A DNA stretch of 64,000 nucleotides, taken from assembly GCF_015169395.1 (NCBI RefSeq), contig NZ_CP063458.1, forward strand, positions 1,178,001 to 1,242,000, given 5' to 3'. Position numbers and translations under genes: made by a program. Under the pieces are notes generated by a model. That model was given only the letters and a program-made list of their open reading frames with translations. It had not been told where the DNA came from and did no database searches. Source of the DNA: Humisphaera borealis (GTDB lineage Bacteria; Planctomycetota; Phycisphaerae; Tepidisphaerales; Tepidisphaeraceae). The stretch's first letter is position 1, and every line of letters starts with the position of its first letter. Shown piece after piece: positions 27,608-34,291 of this stretch.

Positions 27608-28788
27608 GCATACCCGAGTCGACGGGTTTTTCCTGTTGCTGGGCTCGGATTACGAAGCCGCTCGATGACACGCTCGACACTGAACTGAGAACGGTAAAGA
27701 TCCGCCGCCCGCGCGCCCAGTGAGCGGCGATCAGCAGACGGGAGCGCGAGCACGGCGCTCGTTGCCGCGGCGATCCCATCGGGGTCCGGTTTGGGAGCCA
27801 TCGCGATACACCCGCACATCGCCCAGAACGGCTCCGTCAGGTGCCCGCCGTTCGATACCAACGCGGTACCGTTTGACAACGCCGCCATCGCCGTGGTTCG
27901 ACGGCTGCTAACACCATCTGGGAAAGGCAGCACCATCACTTCGCAAGCGCGGATGTGCGCTGCGACGGATTGCGGTTCGAGTTCCCCGGCCGCCACCACG
28001 CGAGTTCTCCAATCCGGCATCGCCGCGACAAATCGATCGAGAAACGCCTGCGAGCCCCTGCCGAACAGCAGGACGGAGAGCGAAGGGTCCCCTCGCAGCA
28101 GCCGTGCAAGCACAGGTTCCAGAATGTCGGTGATCGGTTTGCCGAAGGTTCCGAAATGTCCGACCAGCCGACCAGTGCCGGAGGGCAGAACTCGGGCTCG
28201 AATGGCTTCGACCTCGGCGTCGTTGAACAGCGCGGGCACGTTCGATGGCACCGGGAGCCATTCGGCCGACTTGTCACGGAGCCCGCAGTGCCGAAGGATC
28301 GCGGTCCATCCAGGGACTGTGACAAAAACGCGTTGGGCCGCTGCCAAAACCAGCCGCGCCATAGCGCGATGTGCCGTGGCCAGCGCGATATGTTTCGGTC
28401 GCCAGCCGAATGGAAACGCGACCTCGTGGAACATTAACCAGACGGCGTGGCGCCGAGCCCGGGCTGCGATCCACACCGCGAACGGCAGGTTCATCGCTTT
28501 CATTCCGAATGCGTGGGGGACGTACTGGATAAGCATTCGGTCCGGCGGATCGAGTGCCAGCGCCCGGTCAAGCAAAGCGAGTCCACGAGGGCCAAAGTGG
28601 TCGCACAGTCGAACGACGCACACGCCTCGGCACTCAGCGATACCAGTGGCGTATACCGGAGCGTACACGCGCACGTCGTCGCCGGCTGCGGCCAACCCCG
28701 CGGCGAGTTGTGAGGTGTAGTCGGCGACCCCACCGGACTGCGGTGGGAACTCGCCGGTCAGTATGGCCCAGCGGGTCGGCTCGTTCAC
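27604..28788 (-). CDS. GT4-like glycosyltransferase with weak EX7E motif
   Basis: The 394-residue protein has the GT4 N-terminal signature GEFPPQSGGVADYTSQLA and a donor half with VGHFGTFGKPITD and LLFGRGSQAFLDRF. In place of a clear EX7E motif it has FPDGVSSRRTTAMAALSNG, so the donor-binding glutamates appear substituted. It could be an altered or inactive transferase. The ATG at 28788 overlaps the upstream SGNH gene by ATGA, and its own stop overlaps the next transferase. Confidence 0.8.
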   Translation of the reverse strand: MNEPTRWAILTGEFPPQSGGVADYTSQLAAGLAAAGDDVRVYAPVYATGIAECRGVCVVRLCDHFGPRGLALLDRALALDPPDRMLIQYVPHAFGMKAMNLPFAVWIAARARRHAVWLMFHEVAFPFGWRPKHIALATAHRAMARLVLAAAQRVFVTVPGWTAILRHCGLRDKSAEWLPVPSNVPALFNDAEVEAIRARVLPSGTGRLVGHFGTFGKPITDILEPVLARLLRGDPSLSVLLFGRGSQAFLDRFVAAMPDWRTRVVAAGELEPQSVAAHIRACEVMVLPFPDGVSSRRTTAMAALSNGTALVSNGGHLTEPFWAMCGCIAMAPKPDPDGIAAATSAVLALPSADRRSLGARAADLYRSQFSVERVIERLRNPSPATGKTRRLGYA

Positions 28789-29735
28789 CGGCGCTCCCGC
28801 GTATCAATAGCGAGCCGTGCGGAGAAAGCGGCCGCGCCGGCAGCGTTCAGGTGCAGGTGATCCGCGAACCCATCATCACCGATCCAATCGGCCGCCTGCA
28901 CGTAGCGACCGCCGGCGGCGCTAACCAGTTCCACGATGTGGGCTCGGTATGCGGCCCAGGCGGGCGTGTTGTATAATCGGCGTCGGTGCTGTTCCGTAAC
29001 CGGCATTTCGATCACCCAAACAGGCGCGCTGCGATCGCGCGCCATCGCAAGCAAGGCCGCGACTGACGGCGCCAGCGGGGCTCGCGCCTCGGTAGCACGA
29101 GCGCAATGCAGCGCGAATACCCCGCGGTCAGCTTCGAGCAGCGAGAAGTCCTCGACGCGACCGAACAGGTTCGATTCCTTCTTCGGCAGGCCGATCTCGC
29201 CCAGCGACCGGCGTACAAGCTCGACCTTTGCCCAAATCGCGGACCGCTCGACGAGCACAGGGATCTGGGCCACCGCGCGGAACGCCGCCTGTCTCGTGGG
29301 GTCATTCGGGAAGTAGAACTCGGCCGCTGTCTCGGTTTCGACGTAATAACCCATTGCGCGGTTTCCGAACAGAAAGCTCCAACCGCTGTCCGGGGGATCA
29401 GTGAGTTGAGTGTCGAGGAACCCATAGTAAAGGGCGCCGCCGCGGTGCCGGTCCTGCTGCCGGTAAATCAGGTAATGCTCGATCGGTTTGGTCGCCCCGA
29501 GGCCTAAATTAAGTGGTCGTGACCCAGGTTGAGCGGCCGCGAACGCCATTTCATCCAACCCTGCGGCCATCGTCGAGTTCCCGAGAAACAAGTCGGTCGC
29601 CGGTTTGGAACGCTCGGAGCGGTCGAGTAATTGACGTGGGACCGACTTTCGCGCCAAACGCGCCACCCCGATGTTCAAAGCAATCAGAGCGCAGGTTGCG
29701 AGTGCAAGCTGAAGGGCGAGGGGACGAAACGTCAT
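28785..29735 (-). CDS. SGNH-like membrane-anchored protein of an O-acylation cassette
   Basis: From ATG 29735 (AGG about 11 bases upstream) the frame encodes 316 residues with one N-terminal membrane segment. An SGNH-like block I (FLGNSTMAAGLDE, near 48-60) and a C-terminal block with DHLHLNAAGAAAF (near 298) bear the Asp-x-x-His pair. Proteins of this kind sit beside MBOAT acyltransferases in alginate, DltB and cellulose O-acetylation systems, where they pass acyl groups to the polymer in the periplasm. It follows the DUF5989-like gene by 8 bases and the MBOAT gene lies just upstream, completing such a cassette. Block I has Asn-Ser where Asp-Ser is usual, so the fit is loose. Confidence 0.7.
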   Translation of the reverse strand: MTFRPLALQLALATCALIALNIGVARLARKSVPRQLLDRSERSKPATDLFLGNSTMAAGLDEMAFAAAQPGSRPLNLGLGATKPIEHYLIYRQQDRHRGGALYYGFLDTQLTDPPDSGWSFLFGNRAMGYYVETETAAEFYFPNDPTRQAAFRAVAQIPVLVERSAIWAKVELVRRSLGEIGLPKKESNLFGRVEDFSLLEADRGVFALHCARATEARAPLAPSVAALLAMARDRSAPVWVIEMPVTEQHRRRLYNTPAWAAYRAHIVELVSAAGGRYVQAADWIGDDGFADHLHLNAAGAAAFSARLAIDTRERR

Positions 29736-29743
29736 GAATCTGC

Positions 29744-29926
29744 CTAGAAGTCGATGTAGATGAACTTCGAGGACTGCCCGCAAAACGCGATGATGGCACA
29801 CGCGAGCAGTCCCCACCATACACCCCAGAGCGGTGACCGGAGGCCTACCGGCAGCCCCTTAGGGCGTTCGTCATCCTCACCGCCTAGGTACTCAAGCAAA
29901 CGTTTCAGCCACAGAACTGAGTTCAT
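29744..29926 (-). CDS. DUF5989-like small membrane protein
   Basis: This 60-residue frame starts at an ATG that overlaps the MBOAT stop as ATGA (29923-29926) and ends 8 bases before the SGNH gene. It has an N-terminal amphipathic part (LWLKRLLEYLGG), one membrane segment (about residues 32-49) and a C-terminus SSKFIYIDF. That ending recalls the 'S..APFIYTLF' end of DUF5989 proteins, short membrane proteins found beside SGNH, carbamoyltransferase and acylation genes. It is too short for a firm family call, but position, coupling and pattern make it a real gene rather than a chance ORF. Confidence 0.65.
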   Translation of the reverse strand: MNSVLWLKRLLEYLGGEDDERPKGLPVGLRSPLWGVWWGLLACAIIAFCGQSSKFIYIDF

Positions 29927-31107
29927 CCGACAACCACCCGGTGGAAGAAGAACATTGCCGTTTCTAGGTCCATCGCGAAGAACGCCCAGCCCGCGTTTAC
30001 CGCGATGTAGGTGAGTAGCCAACCTCCAAGTTTTTCGGCTCGCGACTCAGGTCGCGGGTCGGTCGTCCCGCCGCGCCGGGACCATAGCCGATGAATCACC
30101 AACAGCAGGCCGTGCCATGCGCCCCAAACGACAAAGTTGAGCCCGGCTCCGTGCCAGATGCCGCTCACGAGCATCACCACCATCACGTTGCGGCATGTGA
30201 ATACAGTCGACCCGCGTGATCCGCCGAGCGGAATGAACAGATAGTCGAGCAGCCACTTGTACAGCGACATGTGCCAGTGCCGCCAGAACTCCGCGATGTT
30301 GGTGCGGAAGTATGGCCAGTCGAAGTTCTCGGGGATCTTCACTCCGAACAGCCGGCCAGAGCCGATGGCGATGTCCGAGTACGCTGAGAAGTCGAAGTAG
30401 ATCTTCCACCCGTAGGCGAACAGCCATACCGGTAGTACCCATCGTTCGGCCTGTGCGATGTCGGCTCGGTTCAAGTGGTCCGTGACGCTGGTTAGTAGGT
30501 CTGCGACCGCAAACTTCTTTACTAGCCCTGTGAGGATGCGAGTTATCCCGCGGTTCCAGTCGGTCGCCCACTCGGCGGACGGGTTCCGCAGGCACGGTGC
30601 GAAGTCTTGGAACCGCTTGATCGGCCCAGCCACCATTGTCGGGAAGAAGAATATGAACGCGAGGTACTCGGCGAACGTCCCCGGCTCCACTTTCCCGCGA
30701 TATCGGTCGGACGCGTAATGGATAAACTCAAATGTGAAGAATGACACGCCAAGGGGAAGGAATGCTTCTTCCCACCGTACCGGGTTTGTACCAAGTGGGC
30801 CGGTCACTAACCCGGTTACAAAGTTCCAGTACTTAAACACCCCAAGCACCGCGACACTGATCAGAATTCCGAACAGACACGCCCGCGATCGCGGCCCGTA
30901 CAGCGATCGGAACGTCGCTTCCCAGAGAAAGATCAGAATGCACGCGGCTCCCCACCAACCGCCGAACTGCACTGCGGAGAAGTAGACAAAGAATGCTACG
31001 CCGGTGAGGGAACACACCCATGGCCGCCCCCGTGCCGGGGCCAGCCGGAAGAGCGCAGCGCCCGGCACAAGGAACAAGAAGTAGTAGACGAATGTGTTGA
31101 AGATCAT
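29923..31107 (-). CDS. MBOAT-family O-acyltransferase (AlgI-like)
   Basis: The 394-residue protein has about ten membrane segments. It carries the MBOAT hallmarks AEFWRHWHMSLYKWL (about 269-283) and SGIWHGAGLNFVVWG (about 312-326, with the conserved active-site His). PLGVSFFTFEFIHY and GPIKRFQDF are also typical of AlgI and DltB. It would move acetyl or other acyl groups from the cytoplasm for transfer to the polysaccharide. It starts 9 bases before the FkbM gene end, and its stop is coupled to the DUF5989-like gene. Together with the SGNH gene it forms the O-acylation cassette. The final step enzyme is presumably the SGNH protein. Confidence 0.92.
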   Translation of the reverse strand: MIFNTFVYYFLFLVPGAALFRLAPARGRPWVCSLTGVAFFVYFSAVQFGGWWGAACILIFLWEATFRSLYGPRSRACLFGILISVAVLGVFKYWNFVTGLVTGPLGTNPVRWEEAFLPLGVSFFTFEFIHYASDRYRGKVEPGTFAEYLAFIFFFPTMVAGPIKRFQDFAPCLRNPSAEWATDWNRGITRILTGLVKKFAVADLLTSVTDHLNRADIAQAERWVLPVWLFAYGWKIYFDFSAYSDIAIGSGRLFGVKIPENFDWPYFRTNIAEFWRHWHMSLYKWLLDYLFIPLGGSRGSTVFTCRNVMVVMLVSGIWHGAGLNFVVWGAWHGLLLVIHRLWSRRGGTTDPRPESRAEKLGGWLLTYIAVNAGWAFFAMDLETAMFFFHRVVVG

Positions 31108-31947: not shown

Positions 31948-33149
31948 TACTTCGCTCCCGTCGCGGCTAGACGTCCGGCGTGTGACACCGCGTGGAACAC
32001 GTCGATCAGTTGTGCGAGATGTGCTTCTGGAGTGAACCTCGCCGCCATCTCCCGCGCCCCGACTCGCAACCGCTGCAAGTGCTTTTCTGATGACAGTGCC
32101 CGGACCAACGCCGCGGCCAATTCCTTTGGGTCCGGCCTTTCGCCGGGCGCGGATTCGCCCGATACCCCAGGCGAGAGCCAGTCCGGAATGCCGCCAGTAG
32201 CGTACCCAACGGCGGGTAGGCCCACGCACCCAGCTTCGACACCCACCAGTCCGAACGGTTCGGGCCATACGCTCGGCACCAAGAGCACGTCGGCCCCTCG
32301 CATTTCCCCTGTCCGACGGGCCGAATCGACCCACCCCAAGAATTCGACCGGTACGCCATGACGCTTCGCTTCGGATTCGGCCGCGCCGCGATCCGGACCA
32401 TCGCCGGCGACGACCAGAGTGAGCGGACGGCCGATTCTGGCAGACGCAATAGGCACCGCTTCGATTAAGTGCCGAAGCCCCTTCTGCACGGTGACCCGGC
32501 CGACGAATAGGACCCGGTCCGAGCGCTGCCGCGATTCGGGCGGTTTGGGGTCGGGTACAGCGTCGGGCGGGAACAGAGGTACCAACCGGAGCCGGTCTTC
32601 GGGCGCCCCGTGCCGCCGGAACTCTGCGGCCATGTGCGCGCTCGCGACCAGCACTGCCCGGTAGCGCCCTAGGTTCGACCTGCTTCGGCGCTGGGACCGG
32701 TACAAGCTCAGCATCGTGACCGGGTTCCGGCCACCGCACCCGCGTGGTAAGTACGCCGCCAGGCACCCCGGCCCTAGGACCCGCGCGCACGGCGCGAACT
32801 CGGGCCGCGTCTGGCATTTGGTCCCGCTCACGCAGGTACCCTGATAATTGTGCGCGTACAACACAGTTGGAAATCGGTCCGCGAGCGCCGCTTCAAGGTT
32901 CGGGTCACCTAGCCCGTGCGCGTACACCACGTCCGGCACCCATCGCTCCACTTCTGCGATCGCCCCGGCTCCAGCGAGCCATACCGGCACCCCGGGGACG
33001 CCCGAGACCACGCCTCCGGACGGTTCGCCGTGTTCGGCCAGGACCGCGAGGTCGAACCCGTAGTCCCGGAGCCGCGGGAGCACCGCACGGAGATACGTTT
33101 CGACACCGCCAACAATGCTGAGATGCCGTGTCGCGATGAGAACGCGCAT
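31947..33149 (-). CDS. GT4-family glycosyltransferase
   Basis: The 400-residue protein begins at ATG 33149, sharing a base with the acyltransferase stop (TGATG). It has a GT4 N-terminus with RVLIATRHLSIVGGVETYL, LFVGRVTVQKGLRHLIEAVP in the donor half, and the EX7E motif within WPEPFGLVGVEAGC (near 293). A Cys-containing stretch near residues 100-125 is unusual for the family. The high GC at the third codon positions matches its neighbours on both sides rather than the genes further along. Confidence 0.9.
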   Translation of the reverse strand: MRVLIATRHLSIVGGVETYLRAVLPRLRDYGFDLAVLAEHGEPSGGVVSGVPGVPVWLAGAGAIAEVERWVPDVVYAHGLGDPNLEAALADRFPTVLYAHNYQGTCVSGTKCQTRPEFAPCARVLGPGCLAAYLPRGCGGRNPVTMLSLYRSQRRSRSNLGRYRAVLVASAHMAAEFRRHGAPEDRLRLVPLFPPDAVPDPKPPESRQRSDRVLFVGRVTVQKGLRHLIEAVPIASARIGRPLTLVVAGDGPDRGAAESEAKRHGVPVEFLGWVDSARRTGEMRGADVLLVPSVWPEPFGLVGVEAGCVGLPAVGYATGGIPDWLSPGVSGESAPGERPDPKELAAALVRALSSEKHLQRLRVGAREMAARFTPEAHLAQLIDVFHAVSHAGRLAATGAK

Positions 33150-34291
33150 CACGCCCCCGCGCCTGCGTGCGCTGGCTGCGCGGTACCCGCCCCGGTCTCC
33201 TGACGTGCCGAGCGACGGAACCACCGGCGGCACGGGCGCTCCACCAGGTAGTAGGTGGCCAAACAGCAGGCTACGATCAGCGCAAGGTAAACTGCTAGCA
33301 CCCCGACGCGCGTGACGACGCCAGCATCGGCGAACCGCGCGGATGGAAGCAACTTGTACGCCACTTTTTGGGCCAGCGTGTGCGTCATATAGAGCGCGTA
33401 CGAGACCTCACCGACAAACGCTACAGTGGTGGCGGTCCAGAGTGGATGGCACCCAGCCCCAGCCCGGGCCAGAACCGCGATCAGCAGCAACGGCAGACAC
33501 ATCAGTAGCCCAACTACCACTGACGCGTCGGGCACGAAGCAACACGCTGCCATCACCGCCACCAGCGCCAACGACGCCCATTGGGCCGCCGGACCGGTCA
33601 CCGGTTCACCGTTGCGGACCGACCAGCACAGCACCACCCCCGCCAGAAACGTCGGGACGACCAGCACCAACTCGTAGAACGGCCACGGCCGCCAGAAAAG
33701 GCCTATCCCGACCGACCCGGCGGCACCGAACACGGCGAGGGCCATCGCGGGAAGACGGGCTGTCAGCCCTAGCCGAGTCCCCAGCGACACGGCAAACGGG
33801 AACAGTAGGTACGCGAACCACTCTGAACTGATCGACCACGATGGGTAGTTCCAGTTTAGCGAGAAGTGCGGCACCCAAGTATGCACCACGAGCAGGTTCA
33901 GGGCGAAGTCGCGACTCGTATAGCCGGCGTCCGTGAGCCGGAACCCGGCCCGTTCGCTCACGTACACCATCGCCCCCACCGCGAGCAGTGTCACCAGGTG
34001 AACTGGGTAGATGCGGGCTAGGCGGCGCAACAGGAAAACGAACACGCGGTGGGCCGACAGAGTGGCGAGATTGTCGGTGTAGGTGTGCGCGAGAACGAAC
34101 CCGCTGAGCATGAAGAACGCTGGGACCGCCATATGGCCACACCGGGCCAGCGGCGAGAAAGCATCCGCGCCCGGGAATAGCACAAGGACGTCGTTCCAGA
34201 AGTGGTACACCACCACCCACGACGCGAGGACGCCGCGAAGGGCGGTCAGCGAGACGATTTCGGCGGTCGGACGGAGCGCGTGGGCGGGCAT
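33149..34291 (-). CDS. Acyltransferase-3 family membrane O-acetyltransferase
   Basis: The 380-residue polytopic protein has the acyltransferase_3 (OatA/ExoZ/NolL type) signature near the N-terminus: SLTALRGVLASWVVVYHFWN (the catalytic His in YHFW) followed by FFMLSGFVLAHTY. It has about ten membrane segments and a C-terminal basic tail. It would acetylate a sugar residue using acetyl-CoA from the cytoplasm. With the separate MBOAT/SGNH cassette this gives the locus two independent acylation routes. It lies 14 bases after the glycosyltransferase at 34306 and is coupled to the next one. Confidence 0.92.
   Translation of the reverse strand: MPAHALRPTAEIVSLTALRGVLASWVVVYHFWNDVLVLFPGADAFSPLARCGHMAVPAFFMLSGFVLAHTYTDNLATLSAHRVFVFLLRRLARIYPVHLVTLLAVGAMVYVSERAGFRLTDAGYTSRDFALNLLVVHTWVPHFSLNWNYPSWSISSEWFAYLLFPFAVSLGTRLGLTARLPAMALAVFGAAGSVGIGLFWRPWPFYELVLVVPTFLAGVVLCWSVRNGEPVTGPAAQWASLALVAVMAACCFVPDASVVVGLLMCLPLLLIAVLARAGAGCHPLWTATTVAFVGEVSYALYMTHTLAQKVAYKLLPSARFADAGVVTRVGVLAVYLALIVACCLATYYLVERPCRRWFRRSARQETGAGTAQPAHAGAGA

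Follow-up and report, generated by a model that had tools for sequence, protein, structure and literature searches.

The stretch of Humisphaera borealis DNA analyzed here (contig NZ_CP063458.1, positions 1,178,001 to 1,242,000), which we call the window, is 64,000 nucleotides (nt) long and carries three adjacent genes whose products probably act together in acyl transfer: an MBOAT O-acyltransferase, a 60-amino-acid (aa) microprotein ending in FIYIDF, and an SGNH-like protein. We confirmed that this cassette is real in the window. Its features are as follows:

29923..31107, minus strand: MBOAT O-acyltransferase gene; 394 aa, with a PF03062 profile match
29923..29926, minus strand: 4-nt ATGA overlap of the MBOAT stop codon and the microprotein ATG
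29744..29926, minus strand: microprotein gene, proposed DltX-like acyl shuttle; 60 aa, one hydrophobic stretch, examined in a nine-sequence alignment
29747..29764, minus strand: hexapeptide FIYIDF, C terminus of the microprotein by translation (FxYxxF motif as described in the sections of PMC12148441 on which we draw)
29756..29758, minus strand: codon for microprotein Tyr57, the proposed acyl carrier
28785..29735, minus strand: gene for an SGNH-fold protein with an N-terminal helix; 316 aa, candidate catalytic residues S54, D292, and H295

On the minus strand the order is MBOAT, microprotein, SGNH-like gene, and 8 nt (29736..29743) separate the microprotein stop from the SGNH start. Among 731 window open reading frames (ORFs) of 25 to 140 aa, the microprotein alone ends in F.Y..F.

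The sections of PMC12148441 used here describe FxYxxF as a C-terminal "acyl shuttle": PatA transfers acetyl to its own Tyr within the motif, from which PatB then picks it up. In the Dlt pathway, as cited in the same paper, the motif sits on the microprotein DltX, whose Tyr is the acyl carrier; for MBOAT/SGNH pathways other than Dlt, its Discussion describes no DltX-like microprotein and places the motif on the MBOAT itself. Our searches of the open-licence full-text literature, which also covered SxtJ with carbamoyltransferase, brought up no DltX-like microprotein described for any pathway but Dlt.

The window MBOAT matches PF03062 (E 7.7e-34; 117.9 bits against a cutoff of 27) and is the only match to that family in the 7.19-Mb genome. 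Its best solved relative is DltB (6bug; E 6.5e-35) and its length, 394 aa, is DltB-like; it scores 173.9 bits against the NCBIfam DltB equivalog TIGR04091, below the cutoff of 375. The histidine of its WHG sequence, H319, is invariant. The protein ends in FFFHRVVVG and thus lacks the FxYxxF of fused, AlgI/PatA-type enzymes. That motif is found on the microprotein, which has a single hydrophobic stretch (residues 32 to 50) and is therefore predicted to cross the membrane once. Alignment of nine microproteins showed Y13, G16, W38, I45, F48, G50, Q51, F55, Y57, I58, and F60 to be invariant and the N-terminal EYLGG region to be conserved. Between the window microprotein and that of its closest relative (L091), differences are distributed 12/15/28 over the three codon positions, and dN/dS is about 0.18 (dN 0.24, dS 1.36). 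A single-pass microprotein with C-terminal FxYxxF, beside a motif-less MBOAT and an SGNH gene, has the makeup of a shuttle that works like DltX. By family it is not DltX: only two of the nine clade members match PF12459, both below the 25-bit cutoff (18.1 and 13.0 bits; E 0.0019 and 0.077), and the H. borealis genome has no PF12459 match. A profile of the clade's microproteins did match the C termini of fused MBOATs (hhalign 92.6%; E 4.5e-7).

The SGNH-like protein falls short of the Pfam cutoff for PF13472 (E 3.9e-4; 21.4 bits against 32.9), and G52, S54 (GxS), D292, and H295 are invariant across eight SGNH proteins. Its predicted structure (pLDDT 79.7) has DltD as top Foldseek match (7dxm; E 3.9e-4). 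VIA-align likewise paired the model with DltD (6o93; Z 12.5 over 245 residues) and PatB (8tlb; Z 11.9 over 166 residues), with many SGNH esterases tying with these two (SGNH-fold chains at Z 11.6 to 13.2). The modeled fold, together with the invariant Ser, Asp, and His, supports placing the protein in the SGNH superfamily despite the weak sequence match.

A scan with the MBOAT as query, covering 84,980 species by one genome apiece, returned 24 loci. Ten (L091 to L099 and L113) are close relatives, 56 to 72% identical over the best segment; because L113 ends inside the MBOAT, nine are readable. The earlier note on this DNA had proposed the small ORF, if real, as a third subunit, a reading to be dropped should relatives lack it between their MBOAT and SGNH genes. 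All nine readable loci have it: an ORF of 54 to 62 aa with its own start, ending in the motif, directly follows the MBOAT, and the SGNH gene comes next (in L094 as read by hand). Since the L098 and L099 MBOATs are near-identical, the separate cases number eight plus the window. Contigs of the close relatives are labeled Acidobacteria, Chthoniobacterales/Verrucomicrobia, and Nitrosomonadales, the last probably mis-binned; the same MBOAT DNA occurs in the L098 and L099 bins, labeled Acidobacteriaceae and Nitrosomonadales, so that one of these contigs is probably misplaced. Neither a carrier nor a ligase gene turned up among ten flanking genes scanned around the cassettes of six relatives (L091, L092, L093, L095, L096, and L097); their products are kinases, peptidases, a hydrolase, DNA polymerase I, a formyl transferase, a pterin-binding enzyme, and a transporter. 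Thus, the trio is kept as a unit amid unrelated flanks.

The other 14 loci of the scan include ten with fused MBOATs, two that are split (L100, Coriobacteriia, with a microORF ending in FLYVDF, and L104, Myxococcota, ending in FIYIDF), and two that end at or near a contig edge (L105 and L107). The ATGA overlap of 4 nt recurs in split loci L183 and L185, and L100 has GTGA. Of the 149 non-self MBOAT matches listed for the phylum to which the window belongs, only one has an open frame shorter than 460 aa, the length of fused enzymes; the window's split MBOAT therefore has no close kin among the 392 genomes of that phylum. Searched against 294 genomes of the phylum, the 60-aa microprotein found only itself at significance (next best E 0.0063), a result that says little for a query of this length.

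Free and fused motifs tend to replace one another. Among the 107 distinct MBOAT ORFs in the loci examined, 82 carry their own C-terminal motif (78 strict, 4 relaxed) and none of these has a strict microORF beside it; one has a chance relaxed ORF of 25 aa. The remaining 25 lack the motif, and 20 of them have an adjacent microORF, 17 found by script (16 strict) and 3 by hand (L095, L100, and L187, where an upstream start made the ORF too long or the start lay outside the filter). The contrast in strict microORFs (16/25 versus 0/82) has a p of 5e-13 if rows are independent, and is descriptive only because the fused rows form one clade. A fairer sample consists of the 10 non-self MBOATs with open frames shorter than 430 aa among the matches listed, picked by length alone: an adjacent microORF was found in 8 (L180, L181, and L183 to L188), a distant one in L182, and none in L179. 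In L180 and L181 the microORF lies tail-to-tail with the MBOAT, and in L188 its ending, FRYANI, fits the relaxed motif. L189 and L190 entered the set because a microORF had already been seen and stand outside the length-picked sample. We dropped a control of 494 ORFs of at least 250 aa in large loci, 29 of which had a strict microORF nearby, because it included MBOAT and SGNH genes themselves as well as overlapping frames; in its place we use the motif-fused MBOATs. Some of the split loci carry microproteins of a different kind: L184 and L185 encode one ending in NPFFYQAF beside a short MBOAT, in the order MBOAT, microprotein, SGNH, while in L186 and L189 microproteins ending in FRYEGF and FRYVGF lie upstream of a short MBOAT.

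We built a tree from the MBOAT core alone, restricting the alignment to the part that the DltB fragment 6bug covers, excluding the C-terminal columns that hold the trait, and rooting on DltB; it replaces an earlier tree that kept those columns. Both omit L020 (fragment), L105 (contig edge), and L099 (near-duplicate), and their fused rows were thinned at random, to 45 in the first and 44 in the core-only tree, with five names forced in. All 44 fused MBOATs group in a single clade (100/98; one change; 100% of 200 bootstrap trees), leaving the split MBOATs outside it together with DltB. The sister group of the sampled fused clade (89/85), and so its nearest split relative, is the window clade (100/100; 100/99 when joined by L100 and 86/48 when joined by L104). 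Rooted on DltB, a single long branch, and sampled mostly from one phylum without named PatA or AlgI, the tree suggests that the split layout came first and that fusion to the MBOAT occurred once.

We consider it likely that the products of the three genes form a single transmembrane machine for acyl transfer, with a split, DltX-like layout. The reasons are that the motif lies on the microprotein and is absent from the MBOAT; that PatA carries its acyl group on the Tyr of this motif (PMC12148441, in the sections used here) and the corresponding Tyr57 is invariant in nine microproteins; that the trio is conserved in nine of nine loci, and free and fused motifs are complementary; and that the core tree unites the fused enzymes in one clade, the SGNH protein has a DltD-like fold, and the neighbors are exopolysaccharide genes. 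On the cytoplasmic side, the MBOAT would accept an acyl group, for which acetyl derived from acetyl-CoA is the likeliest candidate, and pass it through its conserved His to Tyr57 in the FIYIDF tail of the microprotein, which would lie outside; the tail would then swing to the membrane-anchored SGNH protein, whose Ser54 would receive the acyl group and esterify an extracytoplasmic glycan, probably the exopolysaccharide of the surrounding glycosyltransferase cluster. That the trio works like DltX, as a split system without linked carrier genes, is well supported; by family it is neither DltX nor DUF5989 nor a Dlt operon. Its chemistry, topology, donor, acceptor, and physical complex we infer. 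The suggestion of the earlier note, in which the microprotein serves as the small third component of a complex that acylates a polymer, is the best reading.

Several observations weigh against this picture. The window microprotein matches nothing in Pfam or NCBIfam, DltX included, even at E 10, and its predicted structure (pLDDT 67.7; pTM 0.33) is too weak to use. When the hexapeptide was removed from both profiles, the hhalign match to fused C termini dropped to 12% over one column; homology of the rest of the microprotein helix to the fused helix is therefore unsupported. Motif-less MBOATs do not all follow the pattern: the candidate microORF of L182 is 2.4 kb away on the other strand, that of L190, an overlapping frame, could result from a frameshift, and L179 (8425-9660) encodes a 411-aa MBOAT lacking FxYxxF with no microORF found nearby, while L020 and L105 are unjudgeable (fragment; contig edge). 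The complementarity rows are also nonindependent, and three carrier matches elsewhere in the genome leave donor and acceptor as guesses.

With DltB-DltX-DltD, which mediates teichoic acid D-alanylation, the cassette shares a motif-less MBOAT, a single-pass FxYxxF microprotein, and an SGNH protein, and DltB and DltD are the best structural matches of the respective partners; it differs in lacking a linked carrier and, genome-wide, a DltA over the cutoff, in its order (MBOAT, microprotein, SGNH), in its exopolysaccharide setting, and in scores below the DltB equivalog and DltX cutoffs. PatA-PatB and AlgI-AlgJ/X resemble it in pairing an MBOAT with an SGNH protein without a linked carrier, in their polysaccharide setting, in the FxYxxF shuttle, and in the sister relationship of the window clade to sampled fused MBOATs (named PatA and AlgI being outside the tree), but their shuttle is the MBOAT's own last helix rather than a separate 60-aa gene.

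Could the small ORF instead be the broken-off C terminus of a fused AlgI/PatA-type MBOAT, produced by a recent frameshift or sequencing error, and no gene at all? The fused tail is the rule among the family and class loci L003 to L031 (26 of 29; the others are split L024, the fragment L020, and L029, where it runs off the contig), and the small ORF does overlap the MBOAT end by 4 nt. Against this stand the separate ORF with its own start in all nine close relatives, on Acidobacteria and Verrucomicrobia contigs, the dN/dS of about 0.18, the conserved EYLGG region, and the position of the window clade apart from all fused MBOATs; on the relatives' ORFs, the alignment, and the core tree, we rejected this explanation, whose probability we put close to nil. 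The microprotein might also be a structural or regulatory subunit, such as an AlgF-like helper or a stabilizer of MBOAT-SGNH contact, with the acyl group passing otherwise: DltX itself is still considered possibly regulatory in the part of PMC11035591 on which we draw, and shuttle chemistry is inferred for the window system. Such a role seems improbable since Tyr57 and both Phe residues of FxYxxF are invariant in nine of nine sequences, free motifs turn up beside MBOATs that lack one of their own, and the motif's Tyr carries the acyl group in PatA (PMC12148441, sections as above).

A third alternative keeps the shuttle step and changes the donor: the system would be of the genuine Dlt type, with genes elsewhere for an adenylating enzyme and a carrier protein that load an amino acid (or another acid), so that the MBOAT would be supplied by the carrier and not by acetyl-CoA. 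The microprotein layout, the DltB-like MBOAT length, and the DltD-like fold agree with this, and the genome contains generic adenylating enzymes and three matches to the phosphopantetheine-carrier family PF00550, at 2.92, 5.13, and 5.90 Mb (the cassette is at 1.21 Mb). Other split MBOATs, in L182 and L188, lie beside AMP-binding or carrier genes. However, the genome has no DltA over the cutoff and no PF00550 carrier within 1.7 Mb of the cassette, and hence no Dlt operon comprising DltA and DltC, and the scanned flanks of the six relatives' cassettes are likewise free of carrier and ligase genes. We regard this alternative as rather unlikely, if the strongest of the three. With no DltA, no nearby carrier, and exopolysaccharide neighbors, transfer from acetyl-CoA to exopolysaccharide is, by inference, the likeliest route. 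The motif-less MBOATs of L188 (4417-9969) and L182 (5063-12710) lie near AMP-binding ligases, in L188 also near a phosphopantetheine domain; with microORFs ending in FRYANI and FLYGVF, respectively, they are possible Dlt-like systems outside the Gram-positive Dlt operon. Since AMP-binding or carrier genes accompany some split MBOATs, this gene arrangement probably works with donors of more than one type.

The earlier note had likened the FIYIDF end to that of DUF5989 proteins. The likeness is meaningful because DUF5989 proteins also end in FxYxxF and some lie near motif-less MBOATs; they are, moreover, short, with one hydrophobic stretch and an F[IVL]Y..F ending. Membership did not hold: the window microprotein has no match to PF19451, the profile proposed for checking it, at E 10, and we rejected DUF5989 as its family in the absence of any PF19451 match in the genome or among the nine clade members and with an hhalign probability of only 6.6% between the clade profile and a DUF5989 profile. 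Typical DUF5989 genes also differ from the window clade in their company: their neighbors are carbamoyltransferase and SxtJ-family genes, or else they are joined to an SGNH-like protein. DltX and the FxYxxF shuttle, as presented in the sections of PMC12148441 used here, make a better reference. We found no paper on DUF5989 in the open-licence full-text literature.

All 30 DUF5989 loci (L149 to L178) have an ORF ending in [FL]xYxx[FY]. DUF5989-like microproteins lie near motif-less MBOATs in L180 to L182 (PF19451 E 0.025 to 1.5e-4, below the cutoff). The FxYxxF ending was also present in all 12 long-frame DUF5989 cases read (L180, L191, L192, and L199 to L207). The reference among them is a 528-aa SGNH-like protein from L191 that carries DUF5989 at its C terminus and scores below the PF13472 cutoff: eleven of the 12 cases comprise this protein and matches to it with E values no higher than 2e-46, and L199 alone matches it at only 8e-6. 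The SGNH-like DUF5989 proteins are about 510 to 535 aa long, and a carbamoyltransferase gene adjoins in 11 of the 12 cases (L180, L191, L192, and L200 to L207), L199 being the exception. These fusions suggest a tyrosine relay for carbamoyl groups. Stand-alone DUF5989 genes occur in carbamoyltransferase, SxtJ-family, DUF5989 clusters in L193 (5516-9044), L194, and L195; an SGNH gene is directly next in L193, and SGNH-like genes are at least 2.5 kb off in L194 and L195.

The sections of PMC12148441 used here describe a shuttle on a separate protein for the Gram-positive Dlt pathway alone; the window cassette looks like another, and its combination of a microprotein with no linked carrier, across phyla, contrasts with the model given there. 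As a natural three-part system, it allows the shuttle to be separated from the enzyme by deletion or mutation, and since no split group in our tree lies nearer to the fused enzymes than the window clade, the order in which a free shuttle came first and fusion occurred once becomes testable. A practical rule follows: beside a short MBOAT without FxYxxF, seek an ORF of 35 to 65 aa ending in FxYxxF; the rule finds genes left unnamed by the Pfam and NCBIfam models used. More tentatively, FxYxxF may be a modular shuttle with three linkages, namely free microproteins (DltX, the window family, others, and probably DUF5989), the MBOAT C terminus, and the C terminus of SGNH-like proteins near carbamoyltransferases; the free form would then be ancestral, MBOAT fusion would have occurred once in the sampled tree, and DUF5989 systems would extend the Tyr relay from acyl to carbamoyl groups.

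Around the cassette, the window encodes GT4 glycosyltransferases, FkbM methyltransferases, a Wzz/BY-kinase, and, in the same exopolysaccharide locus (33149-34291, minus strand), an AT3-family acyltransferase (PF01757); the latter is a second transmembrane acylation route, unrelated to the MBOAT cassette.

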